Below are positions 6,178-36,783 of a stretch of DNA of 36,783 bases, piece after piece. The position numbers were made by a program, and so were the translations under genes. The DNA lies in assembly GCA_019429385.1 (NCBI GenBank), contig JAHYIS010000004.1, positions 71,597-108,379 on the forward strand. Reading direction: 5' to 3'. The notes beneath the pieces are model-generated. The model made no database searches. It was given only the letters and a program-made list of their open reading frames with translations, and was not told the DNA's origin. Within the stretch, counting starts at the first letter, position 1. Each line of letters starts with the position of its first letter. The stretch is from ANME-2 cluster archaeon. GTDB lineage: Archaea; Halobacteriota; Methanosarcinia; Methanosarcinales; Methanocomedenaceae.

Positions 6178-7672
6178 ATAAATCAGGGAAAATCACTTTA
6201 AATATATTATTTTCAAGGTGTATCAATACAAGATGGAATCCTCCCTTATTAGCGGTCTTGACAAAACCAATCGGATTAACCAGCACATCCGGCACTTTAG
6301 ACCCATACACCTTTCCCAGTACCTTCTTCACTCCCGCGTTGGTACCAGTATCTTTTCGGGCTGCTGATATAGCATCATCTTCAAATCCCTTGGTAGATAA
6401 TAAAAATCCTGCCCTGAGACTGTTCCATTCATTCTTATTCTCTTTGATGTTCTCAAGTTCTTTAAGAAATACATCCACTTCATAGGACTTGGTAATCTTG
6501 TTCGTTATCCTGGCAGCAAACAGGACATTATCGGAACCGTCCTCAATGACAACATCAAATTTATGTTCTACATGACCTTCATGATAGGTCTGCGAGAATT
6601 TGATCACTTTCACTCTCGGGATATTCATCCAAATATTCTTAAGAGTGGCAGAGTTTCCGCTTTCTGCAATGTTCAGGAAAAAATCACTTAACAGATATTT
6701 TACAAATTCAAACTCCGGTGTTTTGGTTACCTGTACCTTAAATATCTCGGAATCATCCCTGTTTGCAAGTCCTGCAGGCAAACTAATGGTCAGGTCGACA
6801 TTGTTGCGGGCAGCTTCTGCCAGGTTCAGGGATATATGTCCCTTAAATTCATCCACTATGGTATGGAGCGCAGGTTGTGATTCATCTACAATCAAAGCAA
6901 GTACCGTTATCCGTTTCATGGCATCTTCCATGCTGTTTACGAGTGTCCTGACCTTACTCTTGTATATGTTGACAATACCATTTTGCTTGCACATTTTATC
7001 CGGAGTAGAAGCTGTGTGTTTGTTATTTTTATCAAGATATACAGTCAGTATTTCCCCACCTCTATGATAACATGCAATATACCTGCCTTCAGGGAGTTTT
7101 AATTCGACATACCCTACCAATTTTTCCTGTACCAGTTTATAATTAAGTTTTGACAGGTCGGTAAATTCAGTATCAAGGTCTTTGTATATTGGTTCGAGGT
7201 CTTTTTTAGCTATGGAATTCAATAACAATGGTAAAGATTCTTTCCCTTCAGGGGATTGATAAATATCGATTATTGCATTTTGATAGTTACCCAGTACATA
7301 CCTGAAAGCTTCCTCATCACTAACATCCAGTTTGTTGTTAATAATTCCTATGAGTTCACCACGCCACATAGAAAAGACTGATATCGTTTCATCGACATGA
7401 ATAAAAAGACAACCCGAGAAATCTTCTTTTTTTAAATAATCAAGCAGTTTCACCAGTAAAATATAATATGACCTTAGTTGCAAATGTACTGGCTTGAATG
7501 TCCTGATAATCTCCAATATCCAATCGATATCATTTTTATTTTGAGTAATCTTTTTTGGTTTACGATGCGGCTTCTTCATGGCATCGAGGAATGTATCTAA
7601 TCCCGATTCCTTTATGAAGTTCTCCAGTTCTGCTACATCAGTTAAATCTACTTTTTTTTCAGGCCCGCCCAT
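6176..7672 (-). CDS. Uncharacterised 498-residue protein
   Basis: I do not recognise this protein. It is soluble by appearance, with no signal peptide or membrane segment. The N-terminus is short, charged and helical; residues of about 65-140 (LLVKLLDYLKKEDFSGCLFIHV, then WRGELIGIINNK) weakly recall the DUF4388/PatA-like sensor fold, in which a short beta unit follows a helix. The middle is rich in aspartate and lysine. The C-terminal 100 residues look like a second alpha/beta domain. The ATG is preceded by AGGTG at 5 nt and a TATA-like stretch about 65 nt upstream. It is a single-gene unit, and function is open. Confidence 0.75.
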   Translation of the reverse strand: MGGPEKKVDLTDVAELENFIKESGLDTFLDAMKKPHRKPKKITQNKNDIDWILEIIRTFKPVHLQLRSYYILLVKLLDYLKKEDFSGCLFIHVDETISVFSMWRGELIGIINNKLDVSDEEAFRYVLGNYQNAIIDIYQSPEGKESLPLLLNSIAKKDLEPIYKDLDTEFTDLSKLNYKLVQEKLVGYVELKLPEGRYIACYHRGGEILTVYLDKNNKHTASTPDKMCKQNGIVNIYKSKVRTLVNSMEDAMKRITVLALIVDESQPALHTIVDEFKGHISLNLAEAARNNVDLTISLPAGLANRDDSEIFKVQVTKTPEFEFVKYLLSDFFLNIAESGNSATLKNIWMNIPRVKVIKFSQTYHEGHVEHKFDVVIEDGSDNVLFAARITNKITKSYEVDVFLKELENIKENKNEWNSLRAGFLLSTKGFEDDAISAARKDTGTNAGVKKVLGKVYGSKVPDVLVNPIGFVKTANKGGFHLVLIHLENNIFKVIFPDL

Positions 7673-7735
7673 TTTTACACCTATGTAAATAAGAAAAACC
7701 CGAATATCATACTTTTTTTCACAGATTAATAAATG

Positions 7736-7747
7736 ATTTTATATATT
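7736..7747 (-). promoter_or_regulatory. Candidate TATA box of the 498-residue protein gene
   Basis: Minus strand AATATATAAAAT, about 70 nt before the ATG, predicting a leader of roughly 40 nt. The flanking 7673-7910 gap is otherwise AT-rich without visible genes. Confidence 0.4.
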
Positions 7748-7814
7748 GTATTCATATAAAAGTATTATCACACTCTGATTGCGTAAACTATTAGAAGTAT
7801 CATCAATCATAACC

Positions 7815-7824
7815 TTTATAAAAT
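7815..7824 (+). promoter_or_regulatory. Candidate TATA box of the DUF2180 pair
   Basis: TTTATAAAAT lies about 90 nt before the first DUF2180 start, with a predicted transcription start near 7846. It is the best TATA match upstream of this three-gene (+) unit. Confidence 0.4.
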
Positions 7825-7910
7825 TGGGTGGAAGTCAGTACCACGATATTTCCACCTAAACAAATGAACCTGGAATGGTATACTACACTTTTCAGGAACG
7901 GGTGAAATAT

Positions 7911-8123
7911 ATGAAATGTTATATATGTGCACAAGAGGGAAAGGACTCCGATGCTGTGGGAGTGTGTATTGTATGCGGTATGGGCGTGTGCCGCAAACAT
8001 ATGATGCGAGAAGAGACGCCGGTTTGGGACGGAACATATCCTGTCAGGCTTAAACCGGATACTGAACACATAAAACGTATCATCTGTCCACCGTGTCATA
8101 GGGCCCTGAAAGAGAATATGTGA
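7911..8123 (+). CDS. DUF2180-type small zinc-ribbon-like protein, copy 1
   Basis: 70-residue cysteine-rich protein of a type common in methanogens. The metal ligands are visible: Cys3 and Cys6 (CYIC), Cys19 and Cys22 (CIVC), Cys27 and His30 in the MGVCRKH unit, and Cys59/Cys62 followed by His63. Two zinc sites are likely. The start at 7911 is fixed by GGTGA five nt upstream and by homology beginning at MKCYIC; a longer frame from 7875 adds twelve unrelated residues. It is followed after 12 nt by a paralogue. Molecular role is unknown; partner binding or a redox/metal sensor are guesses. Confidence 0.85.
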   Translation: MKCYICAQEGKDSDAVGVCIVCGMGVCRKHMMREETPVWDGTYPVRLKPDTEHIKRIICPPCHRALKENM

Positions 8124-8357: not shown

Positions 8358-8418
8358 AGGGGTACATCCATGTATCCCATTTTCATTTTTCCAAAACTTT
8401 TATCCTAATGGTGGCTCT

Positions 8419-9618
8419 ATGATAAACGAACCATATATCAAAAGAATTCTCGCCTTGCTTTTCTTACTTATTGTTGTGTCATCATTTTTTATAGCTCCTT
8501 CACTTGCCCTGGAAACAAGGTCAATGATACTTACCGGTGAAAGAGTATTGGGTATTGGTGAATCATATGAACTCTACCAGGGATATAGTGTTAACATGGT
8601 AGAACCTGCATCATCCGGAAGGAAGGTGATCATACGGATAACATTTGATGGACAAACCGTTAGCGAGGACAGATTCATTAGCAAGGGCGAGGTCTATAAT
8701 GTTACCAGGAAATATGATGACACAGATTTCATCGTACTTGCTATAACGTTAATGGATGTTGATATCGATGAACTAACCGCTACTATAAGGGTAGTACAAT
8801 ATATTGACCCTTCGCGCCCCACGACAGGATTCCTTATCATTGACCAGGAGGAAAAACTTGAACCTGGTACGTACCTAATCCTGGAACAGGGTTACCGTCT
8901 TAACATTGAAGATTTTGGGACTGATTCAACCACACTTGGTTTGTATAAAAATAATATCATGGTTAAGGAAAGCAAAATGAAAGGAAATGATATTTTCAAT
9001 TATACATTAACTTCAAATGGAAACGACCATACAATTATTTCTTTTACCATTAAGAGTATTTTCAAGGGCAGTACCCGTAGTGCAGTGTTCATAGAACATC
9101 TATACCAGTTCGAAGAACCTTTCGATGCAATACCAGTAGAAACGGTTACATCAACGGAAATGAACGGCACCGACACTAATGATAACAATAACACCGGTAA
9201 AGCCAGTAGCAATATTTCACTCTCTGTTCAGGTCACCAATGATGATGGTGGAAAGAGAATTTATAAGAATCAAAGCATAAATGTAACCTATTATCTTAGC
9301 GGCAGTGATTCATTTGATTCAACACGCATAACACTTGATGGAACTATCATAGAAGAGTTTATTGCCCCACACCCCGGAATGCACAGTATCAAACTTGAAC
9401 CTTTACCCGTCGGCAGCCATATTATTGAGGTTTCAGCCATATCGGGTGATGGCGGACGTATTTCGCATGAAACGAAACTATATGTTAGAAAGAACTTTGC
9501 TGAAAATCTCATCATCCCTGAAGTAAATCTAACATTTGCTCCAGTCGTCTTTGCAATAACATCCTTACTTTTGATTATCTGGGCGGCAATGCGAAGACCA
9601 AAAAAGGATGAATGGTAA
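8419..9618 (+). CDS. Membrane-anchored S-layer-type surface protein
   Basis: About 399 residues. The N-terminus is a signal peptide (IKRI, then a leucine/valine core ending near APSLA), so I start at the ATG at 8419 rather than 8350. Two successive beta domains follow, each with an 'L.xGY' pattern (ELYQGYSVNM and LILEQGYRLNI), resembling the duplicated S-layer domain of Methanosarcina surface proteins. An Asn/Thr-rich linker (TNDNNNTG) leads to a third, Ig-like domain, then a C-terminal membrane span with an RRPKKDEW tail. Many N-x-S/T sequons are present. It is anchored outside the cell and probably glycosylated. Whether it is a main S-layer component or an accessory protein is not known. 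Confidence 0.75.
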   Translation: MINEPYIKRILALLFLLIVVSSFFIAPSLALETRSMILTGERVLGIGESYELYQGYSVNMVEPASSGRKVIIRITFDGQTVSEDRFISKGEVYNVTRKYDDTDFIVLAITLMDVDIDELTATIRVVQYIDPSRPTTGFLIIDQEEKLEPGTYLILEQGYRLNIEDFGTDSTTLGLYKNNIMVKESKMKGNDIFNYTLTSNGNDHTIISFTIKSIFKGSTRSAVFIEHLYQFEEPFDAIPVETVTSTEMNGTDTNDNNNTGKASSNISLSVQVTNDDGGKRIYKNQSINVTYYLSGSDSFDSTRITLDGTIIEEFIAPHPGMHSIKLEPLPVGSHIIEVSAISGDGGRISHETKLYVRKNFAENLIIPEVNLTFAPVVFAITSLLLIIWAAMRRPKKDEW

Positions 9619-9619
9619 G

Positions 9620-9712
9620 ACAAGAAAATCCTCCCTACGGTCGGATTAACTTGAGACCATGGACTTAGTCCAAGGTGTCCGATATAGTCGGACAAACACA
9701 CAGTTATACTTT
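9620..9712. repeat. Intergenic repeat element, long copy with two abutting hairpins
   Basis: Block A (9620-9655) and block B (9697-9712) match the short copy at 4607-4660 with one mismatch each. Between them lie two adjoining hairpins: 9656-9676 (TGGACT/AGTCCA stem extended by ACC/GGT across an A-A mismatch) and 9677-9693 (GTCCGA-TATAG-TCGGAC). The element begins 2 nt after the stop of the S-layer-like gene and ends 3 nt before the stop of the convergent RAM gene, so it fills the whole gap. It may act as a terminator here, whatever its origin. Confidence 0.8.
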
Positions 9713-9715
9713 CTA

Positions 9716-9949
9716 TTAAAAACCAGCACCAGTAAGAGTCTTCATATAAGTGACTCCCTTTATTTTCCGTATCTTGTTAAAAACGATATCTCCCAGGTCT
9801 TCCATGCTTTTTACCGTGACCTTGGCGATAAGATCGTATTCCCCAAATAAGGGATGAATCTCCTGGATGTTGTTTTCTTTCACCTGAATGTCAAATACCT
9901 CACGCTCCCTGCCGGGAGTAACATTAATAAGTACAAATCCTAATGCCAA
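9716..9949 (-). CDS. Stand-alone AsnC/Lrp ligand-binding (RAM) domain protein
   Basis: 77-residue protein consisting only of the alpha/beta RAM fold found at the C-terminus of Lrp/AsnC regulators (FVLINVTPGREREVFD, EIHPLFGEYDLIAKVTV, IRKIKGVTYMKTLTG). No DNA-binding helix-turn-helix is present, so it would sense an amino acid or other small effector and act by assembling with another protein or a full-length Lrp. The start is TTG, with AAGGAG upstream. It is divergent from ppdK, with an 18-bp palindrome in between. Confidence 0.88.
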   Translation of the reverse strand: MALGFVLINVTPGREREVFDIQVKENNIQEIHPLFGEYDLIAKVTVKSMEDLGDIVFNKIRKIKGVTYMKTLTGAGF

Positions 9950-9997
9950 TAAAATTTCTCCTTATCCAGTTATATGACTGCTAAATGGAACTATTTT

Positions 9998-10015
9998 TCA
10001 GTAAACGTTTACTGA
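9998..10015. promoter_or_regulatory. 18-bp perfect palindrome between the RAM gene and ppdK
   Basis: TCAGTAAACGTTTACTGA is an uninterrupted palindrome located 48 nt before the RAM gene start and 160 nt before the ppdK start. It looks like a dimeric regulator's site. The region 9950-10175 contains nothing else beyond AT-rich promoter-like stretches. Confidence 0.5.
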
Positions 10016-10175
10016 GATGATATTTATACATATTTCGGTCCAGTATCCGGACTTTAGGGAAATATTTAAAGATACCCAAAATCAGACCGTAATATTATTA
10101 AGCATTTAATTGAATTTCGAGTCAAATTGTCGGCTTTAAAAATAATTATTCAGGACAGGATTTGGAGGACGCTAC

Positions 10176-31592: not shown

Positions 31593-31868
31593 TTAATCCG
31601 ATTCTTTTTCAGGCTCAGCTGCCTCTTTCTTGAAACGGTGAGCCATCTGTTTAATAATGATAATATCACCTGATGCAATTACCCAGCGGTAAGGAAGAAT
31701 TACACCTTTATGTGCAATATCGAACAATTCAGGGTTGATCTTCCCGACAGCCAATCCTGATATTTTGGATTCATTTGGGTCAAGTACTAGATCGTTGACC
31801 TTTCCCACATAGACTCCTTTATCAGTATAAACATTTAATCCAAACAAGGTTGATACTTCAGCACGCAT
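31593..31868 (-). CDS. PRC-barrel domain protein
   Basis: About 91 residues forming one PRC-barrel (LFGLNVYTDKGVYVGKVNDLVLD, ISGLAVGKINPELF, GVILPYRWVIASGDIIII) with a short charged tail. Methanogens carry several such small proteins, and roles in RNA processing or cell division have been suggested for the family. I use the ATG at 31868: it has GAGG upstream, and the TATA box puts transcription start at about 31883, which is downstream of the alternative ATG at 31892. It is probably cotranscribed with thg1. Confidence 0.88.
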   Translation of the reverse strand: MRAEVSTLFGLNVYTDKGVYVGKVNDLVLDPNESKISGLAVGKINPELFDIAHKGVILPYRWVIASGDIIIIKQMAHRFKKEAAEPEKESD

Positions 31869-31904
31869 GTTATTCCCTCTATTGCTACTCATTTAACCTT
31901 ACTG

Positions 31905-33394: not shown

Positions 33395-35197
33395 TCAGGA
33401 TTCTTTTTCAGGGTCATTTTGGACGTTTCTCCAGAACTGGTCATGATTTTGGTTTTTTTCAAGACTTGCTTCCGATGGCATTTCTGGATTTATTTTATTA
33501 GAGTATGGATATCTCTTTGTTATATGCCGTGAATGCTCAGGATCCGGTATTTGCTCTTCATCTGAAAGGATAATAGCAAATGTTTGTTTTGAGGTCCGTC
33601 CGGGTATTGGTGCAGGTACTTTAATTGGCACTATTTTTTTGTCGGGTTCCTTATGCCAAAAACTATCGGGAACATGAGAGTGTCTTTCTTTGGGTCGAGT
33701 GACAAATAAAGGTTTTTCTTTTAAATTAAAATAAAATTGTGTCAAGACAATTGGCAATTTCTTTGCTGTCCTGGATAATTCACCCATCATTGCAGGTAGT
33801 TTATTTACTTTATTTTTATTTGCCATGGTATGTGATATCCCGATATAGATTGAGATTATTACGAAAAACGTTAACAAAATTTTGCCTGGTGGTAGTTTTT
33901 CTTTCAGAAAACCTGTCCACATGATTGGTGCAATTGTCGTATTATTCTTTTCAGTTGGTTGCACTGTTGTGTTATGGGTGGGAAGAACAGTTTGTATTAT
34001 CGATGAATTGGATGCGAGCATTGAAGGGGATGATACATTGCTTCCCGAGATTGCCAGTGGCCCAATATTTATTCTTACTGGAAGACTGGCCTGGTAATAA
34101 TACGTGGTTGAATCTTCACCGATCTTCTTTGTATACATCTTTTCCCAGTCTGTTCTTGAGTCATCATAACTATAAAGGTAAATGGTATTTAACGTAATAC
34201 CATTCTCTTTTACCCATGATTTATCAATAATAAATGAGATTGTTGGATTATTTACATTGTTTTCAGATATCAGGCCAAAGCTGCCGATCCAAACATTCAG
34301 GTTACTGAAAATTACTCCGGGAGCGTCTTTATCGACCAGTGATGAGGTGTGGTTGAGAATCTCTACTTTTACTGCTTCTTTTCCAAAACTGACGAGACCT
34401 GTAAAGTTGATATATTTCACATAATTACATTCCAGTTCAAAATTAAAGCTGACCTCCTGGTCTTTACCGATAAATCTGCGGTCGGTTTCTGTGCAGATTA
34501 TGTTCTTGAAGGTTTCACCTGACGTGCCGGTGCTGCCACCACTACCAACACCAGTGCTTTTAGTGGTTGTAACTTCATTTACAGTGACGGTCAATGTATC
34601 ATTGTCAGAATTTCCAGCAAAATCACTAACCGTAAGGGTAACCGTATATGTACCAGGATTGGAGTAGGTGTGGGTTGTAGTAACTCCATTGGCGTCAACA
34701 GTTATATCGTTACTGGCATCGAAATCCCAGGAATAACTGACAATACCAACATCATCAGATGAACCGGAACCATCGAAATGAACGACTGTATCTTCATTAA
34801 CGGTCTGGTCAGGACCAGCAACAGCGGTGGGAGAGGTAGTATCAAGGAAAGGAGCGGTTGTTGCTGTATGATTCGTCCATGTATGATTGATATTACTATT
34901 GTTATCCTGAGTTTTGGTAGAGATGGTATATTTAGAATTAGGGATTAGACCTGTGGCATTAAAGAATTGAATCCCTTTTGAAATATTTTTGATGAATGTG
35001 TTGTTTATCCAGATGCTTACGTTTGCGAAGTCAGCATCGGATGGGTCGATCCATGTCCAGTTGATATATGTAGCTGAATAACTAATATTGTTAAGATCAG
35101 TTATGTTTGAAGGGGGGGTAGTCACATTAGCACTAACAACTCCAACTGTTACAAATAAAAGCAATATCCCAACAACTGATAAATATAATCCCCGCAA
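33395..35197 (-). CDS. Surface protein with FN3-like, PKD and PGF-pre-PGF domains, membrane anchor and cytoplasmic tail
   Basis: 600 residues. Signal peptide 1-23; FN3-like domain about 30-115; PKD domain about 122-207 (VNEDTVVHFDGSGSSDD, YSWDFD, GTYTVTLTVSD); a Gly/Ser/Thr linker; PGF-pre-PGF domain about 230-385 (VWIGSFGLI, ISFIIDKSWVKENGI, WEKMYTKKIGED, YYYQASLPV). A juxtamembrane PIMWTGF and KEKLPPGK precede a membrane span at 440-459. Instead of the short basic end of a PGF-CTERM protein there is a 140-residue cytoplasmic tail with no recognised domain. Many N-x-S/T sequons suggest glycosylation. The TTG start has GGTGA six nt upstream; an ATG nearby is out of frame. Confidence 0.86.
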   Translation of the reverse strand: MRGLYLSVVGILLLFVTVGVVSANVTTPPSNITDLNNISYSATYINWTWIDPSDADFANVSIWINNTFIKNISKGIQFFNATGLIPNSKYTISTKTQDNNSNINHTWTNHTATTAPFLDTTSPTAVAGPDQTVNEDTVVHFDGSGSSDDVGIVSYSWDFDASNDITVDANGVTTTHTYSNPGTYTVTLTVSDFAGNSDNDTLTVTVNEVTTTKSTGVGSGGSTGTSGETFKNIICTETDRRFIGKDQEVSFNFELECNYVKYINFTGLVSFGKEAVKVEILNHTSSLVDKDAPGVIFSNLNVWIGSFGLISENNVNNPTISFIIDKSWVKENGITLNTIYLYSYDDSRTDWEKMYTKKIGEDSTTYYYQASLPVRINIGPLAISGSNVSSPSMLASNSSIIQTVLPTHNTTVQPTEKNNTTIAPIMWTGFLKEKLPPGKILLTFFVIISIYIGISHTMANKNKVNKLPAMMGELSRTAKKLPIVLTQFYFNLKEKPLFVTRPKERHSHVPDSFWHKEPDKKIVPIKVPAPIPGRTSKQTFAIILSDEEQIPDPEHSRHITKRYPYSNKINPEMPSEASLEKNQNHDQFWRNVQNDPEKES

Positions 35198-35473
35198 TTT
35201 TCATCACCAAAATATTAAGTACAATATTCTATTTAGCTAAATTTTATTTGTATCCGATATCCTTTTTCTCACTCGAAAGTATCGAATAATATAGGATTGC
35301 CTACAGTTGTGTACCTTCTGACTATTCCCTCAAATGTATAGTAAATTTCCAACCCCCTGATTGGATGAATCTATATTAACTACTATACGAAATCAAAATT
35401 AATATGTCTTTCGGATGGTTCCTGCTTTTTATTGTTGAAAAAAGTGACAGAATTGTTATATCAAAACATTTTA

Positions 35474-36664
35474 TCAGGTTCCTACAATTGCGATAGGTAC
35501 GGAGAGAGAAGGCATACTCGCCTCAAAGAATAAATACATGGCTTCCTGGCCAATCCCCTTTATAGTAACAATATCCCATTTACCATTGACGAACAGTTCG
35601 AGTTGCACATTACGAATCTTGTTTTGAGTTATCCATTTCCGGTCTATTTTGAACCTGATAACCGCTTTATCTACAGCTTCATCATGTATATTAAGTCCAA
35701 TATTATCGAACTCATATACAAGCCCTTCCGTAATAGGACCAGCTTTTACAGAATGTTCTTTCAATAGTTCTATAGTGATCTTCACGTCTTTTTTTGAAAT
35801 TTTTGACCTGAAATCGATGACGTTTATACTGTGTTTTGAATCAAATGCCTTGATTACCCTTTTCCCTTCCTTGACAAGTATCGGCACAGATTCATAGAAC
35901 ATTATATTAGATTCCGGCTCTTTATCTGGAACTGGTTTTTTTATAAAATCTTCCAGCAATACAGGTTTTTCAGGTATGGCCTGTTTTTCTTTTAGAACCG
36001 GTGCTGAAGCAGATACTGTTGAAAGTACGGGCTCTGGTTTGACTTCATGTTTCTCACCAGCTTTTAATTCACTGATAATATCGTCAAAAGAAAGATGTTT
36101 CTCAGCTTCACGACGGGTAGGTTCCATAACAGGTGCATGCCGCGTTTCATATTTTTTAACCACTGGCTCTGGTTTTTGATTTAATCCTGATATTGTCGCT
36201 GGTTTTTTGATTTGTCTTTCCCTGATAACAGCCCCCTTGAGCTCTAAACCATCAGGGATACCAGATGGTCTTTCTGTACGTGGAATACCAGTTTCGGTTT
36301 TATCATTTACTTTTAAGGATAAATCGGGTAAAACAGGTAACTCGGGTGATTCCTGTGTAACTGCTCTGACCAGTGATATTACACTTTCAACCACAGAATA
36401 TCTTTCATCACCGAATCGTCTGCGGCCCAGACTAATACCTGCATCTATTATCAAAAGTGAGAGGGCAAATATCAGGATAATGATGAACAGACCCCCATCC
36501 TGATGAGTTTCAAGCCATCCAAGACCAATTTTTGTAACATCGAGGATATAAAGGAGAATTCTTAAAAAAATATAACCAATGCACAATGTGCCTATGAGAT
36601 GAACGGTATTCATGAACAAAGGATTGTCCAGTATCTCATCCACTTTAACATTGGTCCGGGTCAT
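35474..36664 (-). CDS. Two-helix membrane protein with a C-terminal PGF-pre-PGF-like domain
   Basis: 396 residues. It has no signal peptide. Two membrane helices lie at about 19-41 and 57-79, followed by RRRFGDER, then a Pro/Lys/Glu-rich disordered stretch (about 100-250) with repeated KPEPV-type motifs. Residues 255-395 resemble the second half of a PGF-pre-PGF domain: VIRFKIDRKWITQNKI, then GKWDIVTIKGIGQEAMYLFFEASMPSLSVPIAIVG. By the positive-inside rule this domain faces the cytoplasm. GGAGG precedes the ATG. The start codon abuts the stop of the upstream PGF-CTERM gene. The 35198-35473 gap downstream is AT-rich with no gene. Confidence 0.8.
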   Translation of the reverse strand: MTRTNVKVDEILDNPLFMNTVHLIGTLCIGYIFLRILLYILDVTKIGLGWLETHQDGGLFIIILIFALSLLIIDAGISLGRRRFGDERYSVVESVISLVRAVTQESPELPVLPDLSLKVNDKTETGIPRTERPSGIPDGLELKGAVIRERQIKKPATISGLNQKPEPVVKKYETRHAPVMEPTRREAEKHLSFDDIISELKAGEKHEVKPEPVLSTVSASAPVLKEKQAIPEKPVLLEDFIKKPVPDKEPESNIMFYESVPILVKEGKRVIKAFDSKHSINVIDFRSKISKKDVKITIELLKEHSVKAGPITEGLVYEFDNIGLNIHDEAVDKAVIRFKIDRKWITQNKIRNVQLELFVNGKWDIVTIKGIGQEAMYLFFEASMPSLSVPIAIVGT

Positions 36665-36783
36665 CTAATCCCGCCTCCGGCCAGTGACAGATAATACAAC
36701 CAGTACAAATAAGGCTATCAATACCTGGAACCCGGGTACCTCTTCCTTCCACAATCCTGTCCATGTGATTGGTGTCATACCCG
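36665..36783 (-). CDS. C-terminal end of a PGF-CTERM surface protein (runs off the right edge)
   Basis: Only the last 38 codons are in the window. They read MTPITWTGLWKEEVPGF, a hydrophobic span (VLIALFVLVVLSV), and TGRRRD before TAG. The tripartite end (PGF, membrane helix, basic tail) is the PGF-CTERM signal that archaeosortase A recognises for lipid anchoring. PITWTGLWKE is close to the PIMWTGFLKE of the 600-residue protein. The next gene begins directly after this stop, so they are cotranscribed. The rest of the protein is unknown. Confidence 0.8.
   Translation of the reverse strand, partial: GMTPITWTGLWKEEVPGFQVLIALFVLVVLSVTGRRRD

Follow-up and report, generated by a model that had tools for sequence, protein, structure and literature searches.

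At the right-hand end of the window (the whole 36,783-nucleotide stretch analysed here, G000:C4:71597-108379), the stop codon of a gene for an exported surface protein (gene 1, encoding subunit A) abuts the start codon of a gene for a 396-residue membrane protein (subunit B), whose PGF-pre-PGF domain is predicted to face the cytoplasm. We propose, at about an even chance, that the two are halves of a two-sided, co-translated membrane module of ANME-2a/b archaea that ties a surface adhesin to the cytoplasm. Subunit A would be exported. It would carry PKD or other adhesin-type repeats, a PGF-pre-PGF domain close to the membrane and a WTGxWK motif, and its tail of PGF, helix and basic residues makes it a predicted substrate for cutting and lipidation by archaeosortase A, the cutting being a prediction that we hold with moderate confidence. 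Subunit B would span the membrane as a hairpin of two helices, its two ends on the inside, and would hold a second PGF-pre-PGF domain in the cytoplasm by a flexible tether. Since the stop of A touches the start of B, translation of B probably falls to ribosomes that have only just completed A; with moderate confidence we predict that B pairs physically with A in the membrane, perhaps via A's WTGxWK motif and B's invariant W-L-E-x-x-Q loop. The two are a single three-helix chain in some relatives, and there the PGF signal has decayed, as expected if cutting would separate the two faces. The module may link a surface adhesin to something cytoplasmic, as an anchor or a sensor, a putative role for which our confidence is weak. 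A surface protein and a membrane partner, split by one stop codon that two relatives have lost, hint at an unstudied link between outside and inside. The features of the pair, in window coordinates, are as follows.

36665 to 36783, minus strand: gene 1 stub (C-terminal 38 residues of an exported protein): WTGxWK motif, PGF, a membrane helix and the terminal residues RRRD
36728 to 36736, minus strand: PGF codons of gene 1, from sequence
36671 to 36679, minus strand: RRR codons of gene 1, just upstream of the junction, in which GGAGG lies, from sequence
36662 to 36667, minus strand: junction TAG|ATG, the gene 1 stop abutting the start of the 396-residue protein in the same frame, from sequence
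35474 to 36664, minus strand: gene for the 396-residue protein, comprising hairpin, linker and a PGF-pre-PGF domain predicted to face the cytoplasm (open reading frame and profile match)
36428 to 36601, minus strand: two-helix hairpin (residues ~22-79) with conserved external loop W-L-E-x-x-Q, from alignment
35921 to 36427, minus strand: variable linker rich in Pro, Lys and Glu (residues ~80-248), from family comparison
35486 to 35920, minus strand: internal PGF-pre-PGF domain (residues 249-393), TIGR04213 match, model pLDDT 90

The two PGF-pre-PGF domains of the window are confirmed by profile score. The family profile TIGR04213 matches residues 249-393 of the 396-residue protein (E 5e-20, 72.1 bits) and residues 229-373 of the neighbouring 600-residue protein (E 1.1e-38, 132.6 bits), both far beyond chance against a cut-off of 28 bits. 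Internal-only and external-only profiles that share no rows match each other at E 1.6e-22, and the internal and external domains are homologous. Membrane helices, called by a plain hydropathy average with a threshold of 1.6 over 19 residues, place two N-terminal helices ahead of the domain in the 396-residue protein and none behind it, and no PGF follows the domain. This is the layout of two helices, long linker and PGF-pre-PGF domain that an earlier, sequence-only reading of this DNA had described, and hydropathy and profile together bear it out. The usual context of a PGF-pre-PGF domain, export with a membrane helix behind the domain, is that of the 600-residue protein and not of the 396-residue one.

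The wider comparison draws on the matches that a search with the 396-residue protein gave within the window's family, together with a handful of others, a subset of the PGF-pre-PGF genes of the order. After duplicates from L148 (same contig as L051) were dropped, 82 of 84 domains were left, and 80 of these 82 entered the tree, two short rows being excluded. Seven copies among the 82 are internal, all of them in the hairpin family of the 396-residue protein. The internal domains form one clade in the tree (100/100), as do the WTG-type external domains (99/94, 10 rows). Within the hairpin, residues T44, W50, L51, E52 and Q55 are invariant in all eight alignment rows.

The junction itself recurs. 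In all seven split pairs of the family the downstream start follows the upstream stop immediately and in frame (six TAG|ATG, one TAA|TTG), and the upstream gene is in each case an exported gene of PGF-CTERM type. With zero spacing, the purine-rich ribosome-binding sequence sits inside codons of the upstream protein's basic tail. Two relatives carry fused genes, which read GAA ATA (G006) and AAG ATA (G004, contig C438) at the stop and start positions; these are sense codons, and the chain continues. The fused G006 chain (739 residues) comprises an external PKD and PGF-pre-PGF domain, three helices, a linker and a second PGF-pre-PGF domain, and the fused G004 chain (839 residues) has the external domain and three helices and stops after the linker, without the inner domain.

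These fused three-helix relatives are the best evidence for the orientation of subunit B: with the first domain outside and three helices following it, the second domain should lie inside, which argues strongly that the domain of the 396-residue protein faces inward. Composition points the same way. Internal domains hold 0-1 sequons, on average 0.43 over 7 rows, where the 75 other domains average 2.1, and the internal ones have no cysteine and more lysine than those 75; the associated p-values (0.002 or less) overstate the case because the rows are related, and 12 of the 75 others are likewise free of sequons. In five members, 3-5 basic residues occur in the 22 positions after helix 2 and 0-2 in the hairpin loop. 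All 18 sequons of the 600-residue protein precede its last helix, and the tail is free of them. The cytoplasmic placement that the sequence-only reading had predicted is thereby supported. Since the two domains are homologous, both models match GAIN/ZU5 structures and the inward placement is supported, neither outcome that would have overturned that reading, a domain outside or a pair of unrelated folds, came about.

The PGF signal follows the same division. Among the 70 surveyed proteins with a helix after the domain, PGF is present in 34 of the 49 with at most 8 residues past the helix, versus 1 of the 21 with more (p 6e-7), the 8-residue threshold having been chosen after the list was seen; with the threshold set at more than 20 residues, the counts are 1/8 versus 34/62 (p 0.055). 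In the family of the 396-residue protein, PGF occurs in seven of seven split partners and in none of the three tailed chains (739, 839 and 600 residues). The processed and unprocessed versions suggested by the sequence-only reading would fit this loss of PGF in tailed chains. The signalling or assembly system across the membrane that the same reading suggested is a putative role. Trios near archaeosortase genes, which it proposed to look for, are not supported: the genome has one ArtA match, and this is on a different contig from the window. Two further arrangements in the survey concern tails. L154 (G039:C2) encodes, at 6591-7952 and 8374-10137, exported PGF-pre-PGF proteins with 170-178 residues past the helix, a DDS-x-W end and no PGF; L048 (1444-3105, with a cohesin-type domain), L105 and L119 are PGF-pre-PGF proteins with two further C-terminal helices, a different three-helix design.

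The 600-residue protein completes the local set, with these features.

33395 to 35197, minus strand: gene for the 600-residue protein, with signal sequence, PKD, external PGF-pre-PGF domain, one helix and a cytoplasmic tail, as predicted (open reading frame and profiles)
34580 to 34837, minus strand: PKD domain (residues 121-206), E 6.6e-19
34079 to 34513, minus strand: external PGF-pre-PGF domain (residues 229-373), TIGR04213 and model
33824 to 33880, minus strand: membrane helix (residues 440-458), with WTGFLKEKLPPGK just before it and without PGF, from hydropathy
33398 to 33823, minus strand: predicted cytoplasmic tail, homologous by alignment to the post-hairpin tails of fused relatives

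Its external domain groups in the tree with those of the fused chains (100/97), and its tail aligns with their post-hairpin tails at scores of 150 and 141 (shuffle maxima 61 and 55 over 300 shuffles). From this grouping and this alignment we place the gene in the fused branch; the hairpin and second domain have apparently been lost from it. As the sequence-only reading had stated, the protein has an external PGF-pre-PGF domain, PPGK in place of PGF and a long tail, here 142 residues past the last helix; with PPGK and that tail it departs from the pattern of PGF, helix and basic end. The juxtamembrane PI-x-WTG motif reads PITWTG in gene 1 and PIMWTG in the 600-residue protein, as had been noted.

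Because the window stops at the contig end, gene 1 is read only as its 38-residue stub, which ends VPGFQ...GRRRD, that is, in PGF, a hydrophobic helix and a basic end. To judge from the relatives, its missing part should contain a PGF-pre-PGF domain. A search of the same genome with the G004 counterpart found the probable N-terminus of gene 1, an 83% identical piece at the left end of contig C29 (G000:C29:6-476). The orientation of that piece, together with the same gene order in G005, suggests that contig C29 comes after C4, with another PGF-pre-PGF gene (454 residues) upstream. On the minus strand the order of transcription is gene 1 stub, 396-residue gene and 600-residue gene, followed by a convergent gene that we take to be of the TraB family. 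A small protein at 31593-31892 beside this gene, presumably PRC-barrel-like, is found in the same neighbourhood again in G004, G006, G007 and G013. The claim of three adjacent PGF-type proteins is thus partly confirmed, and the gene set is real to that extent: the 600- and 396-residue reading frames are as described and three neighbours are present, but gene 1 is a stub, and the recurring unit is the pair of gene 1 and the 396-residue gene, with the 600-residue gene a side branch.

Beyond the window, a search with the 396-residue protein against 40 relatives found full or partial orthologues in G004, G005, G006, G007, G010, G012 and G013; in G010 the contig end removes the hairpin, and only the C-terminal part of the protein is read. 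Proteins of hairpin, linker and domain stand beside exported PGF proteins in G000 (the window's genome), G004, G007, G012 and G013. The G012 orthologue (L046, 7481-9310) has a very long linker of VPDKTP/VPDEIP-type repeats and follows three tandem exported partners. In the class, 7 of 237 genomes match a model of the hairpin region. All seven are of the window's family; beyond that family, no hairpin protein was found in 185 genomes of the order or the 237 of the class (overlapping sets). The relatives at four family loci are ANME-2 cluster archaea B4-08, B4-03 and S7142MS1 and Methanosarcinales archaeon CSMAG_1931. A passage in PMC9012536 assigns S7142MS1 to ANME-2a, Methanocomedenaceae, and on that basis the whole family would be ANME-2a/b.

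Several observations weigh against a conserved two-sided module. Only five of the seven junctions enter a complete gene with an inner domain: that of G005 C316 enters a hairpin joined to a CPBP-protease-like domain, and in G005 C73 the downstream gene is cut by the contig end after 40 residues. The G005 C316 locus (L049, 1773-3909), in which the hairpin is joined to an Rce1-like/CPBP protease domain and the upstream PGF tail stands behind a DUF1616 protein, is either a real recombination or a chimeric contig (genome contamination 6%). Paralogues can do without the inner domain, since it is missing from the fused G004 form, and the 600-residue protein has neither it nor the hairpin. L048 (553 residues, three helices) keeps PGF despite its long tail. 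The gene 1 stub scores 16.6 bits with the PGF-CTERM model (TIGR04126), under the curated cut-off of 24.5, so that of the normal PGF-CTERM signal ascribed to it by the sequence-only reading the PGF, helix and RRR are all present but the score falls short. Weakly, the segment ahead of helix 1 is not net positive in four of five members.

Subunit B might instead be an assembly or sorting factor, whose hairpin docks the partner's C-terminal signal for the archaeosortase and lipid machinery while its inner domain recruits cytoplasmic enzymes. Such a role would suit its place immediately after PGF proteins (a tandem of three in G012), and the one hairpin joined to a CPBP domain, whose NCBIfam matches, below cut-off, include sorting-type proteases; and in Haloferax volcanii, according to PMC7157517, ArtA acts at midcell together with PssA and PssD, two enzymes of lipid synthesis. 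We nevertheless think it unlikely, since the fused forms tie B permanently to a single substrate and lack PGF, no B adjoins the remaining PGF-pre-PGF genes of the same genomes in the stretches read, and the hairpin is confined to those seven of 237 genomes whereas a PGF-pre-PGF match occurs in 58 of the 59 genomes of the order searched.

Unlikely too, and a little more so, is an ordinary cluster of duplicated surface proteins in which duplication left an inner copy that is passive: it would have lost its signal peptide and would serve no special role. PGF-pre-PGF genes are indeed numerous and often tandem, and paralogues have lost parts. Against this, the inner domain is retained in both genera at 45-79% identity while the linker varies, the inner domains are a single clade, and the junction is kept in every split pair.

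An inverted hairpin, with the domain of the 396-residue protein outside like all others, is very improbable: it could draw on the charge ahead of helix 1 and on the sequon-free domains among the others, but it conflicts with the three helices that fused forms carry past the external domain, with the RR behind helix 2 and with the acidic loop. Decoding of the junction UAG as pyrrolysine, which would make gene 1 and the 396-residue gene a single protein, can be dismissed almost entirely: the common frame, zero spacing, the TAG at six of seven junctions and a PylS over cut-off in the relative G004 are set against the lack of a PylS over cut-off in G000, G005, G006, G007, G010, G012 and G013 (for which reason we reject read-through in the window's genome), TAG as terminator of 7 of 27 proxy genes in the window, a start codon next in every split pair, and the one TAA|TTG junction. 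The PylS match in G004 scores 369 bits at G004:C379:2883-3596; none was found in the six sister genomes searched or in the window's genome.

The fold of the domain was predicted as well. Models built with an alignment of 11 rows reach pLDDT 90 and pTM 0.84 for the internal domain and 79.5 and 0.77 for the external one. For the internal model the best Foldseek matches are GAIN domains (E 6.9e-3 and 1.4e-2, probability 1.00), and with VIA the first 16 rows are all ZU5, GAIN or FIIND (Z 9.7 to 6.7), headed by ankyrin-B (Z 9.7, rmsd 3.7, 132 aligned), with unrelated enzymes from Z 6.2; the external model finds a GAIN domain at Z 7.9 amid other folds. Both models thus match GAIN/ZU5, the internal one more clearly. 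As the tool notes that Z under 8 may be just a common arrangement, only the internal-domain result is clear, and modestly so: the internal domain modestly resembles the ZU5/GAIN/FIIND fold, and the external one less clearly. A sequence link was rejected, since a Pfam scan of 47 domains found no ZU5, GPS or GAIN family and a profile search found no ZU5/GAIN PDB sequence; the support comes from fold comparison. An HFS or HL(T/S) triplet before the last strand is the site of GAIN autoproteolysis and has decayed in many ZU5 domains. It is absent from the window's domains, in which PSLS and PVRINIG stand at that position, and we reject autoproteolysis for them. A domain of L052 (7738-8952, G018) ends DHLSSRFAIVG, with an HLS triplet, the only one of 79 listed domains to do so.

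The layout of polycystin-1 resembles PKD, PGF-pre-PGF, then membrane. A bolder possibility, which we consider distinctly unlikely, is that PGF-pre-PGF is the archaeal branch of ZU5/GAIN, and that ANME-2a/b possess a two-faced receptor, with adhesin repeats and a GAIN-like domain outside and a ZU5-like domain inside, made as one or two chains switched by a stop codon and archaeosortase, contacting the partner bacterium; in its PKD-GAIN-membrane architecture it would be the prokaryotic counterpart of polycystin-1. Liao et al. (2014), on GAIN, ZU5 and Nup98, reportedly found ZU5-like domains in bacteria and archaea too, so that priority for the fold claim may be theirs. Literature joining a GAIN or ZU5 domain with archaea yielded nothing on PGF-pre-PGF by title or abstract, and the passages on PGF-pre-PGF in PMC5244752 mention neither an inner copy nor a fold. 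A passage of PMC3482391 reports bacterial surface proteins and toxins that contain domains of the ZU5 superfamily.

PGF-pre-PGF is abundant in this archaeal order, yet it is seldom named in the literature searched, and an inside-facing copy with split and fused forms meeting at one and the same codon offers a direct handle on its role. The same forms bear on whether archaeosortase cutting separates surface proteins from an inner partner, in hosts that are syntrophic methane oxidisers living in contact with bacteria. If the ZU5/GAIN-like fold is correct, a common archaeal surface domain would be connected to a fold of animal receptors.

Compared with known PGF-pre-PGF surface proteins (TIGR04213/IPR026453), both window domains score over the cut-off and the copy in the 600-residue protein occupies the usual place before the helix, whereas that of the 396-residue protein follows two helices, has no helix or PGF behind it and is predicted to lie inside. 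From the ZU5/GAIN/FIIND superfamily (ankyrin, UNC5, adhesion GPCRs, polycystin-1, NLRP1) the window's domains differ in having neither a sequence-profile match nor the HFS or HLT/S triplet, and in the less clear external model; the likeness is the predicted fold of the internal domain. Relative to the PGF-CTERM/archaeosortase A system, the 600-residue and fused forms are distinct, being without PGF and with predicted cytoplasmic tails, and gene 1 scores under the cut-off, but gene 1 and all split partners share with that system the PGF, helix and basic end, and ArtA is present in the genome.

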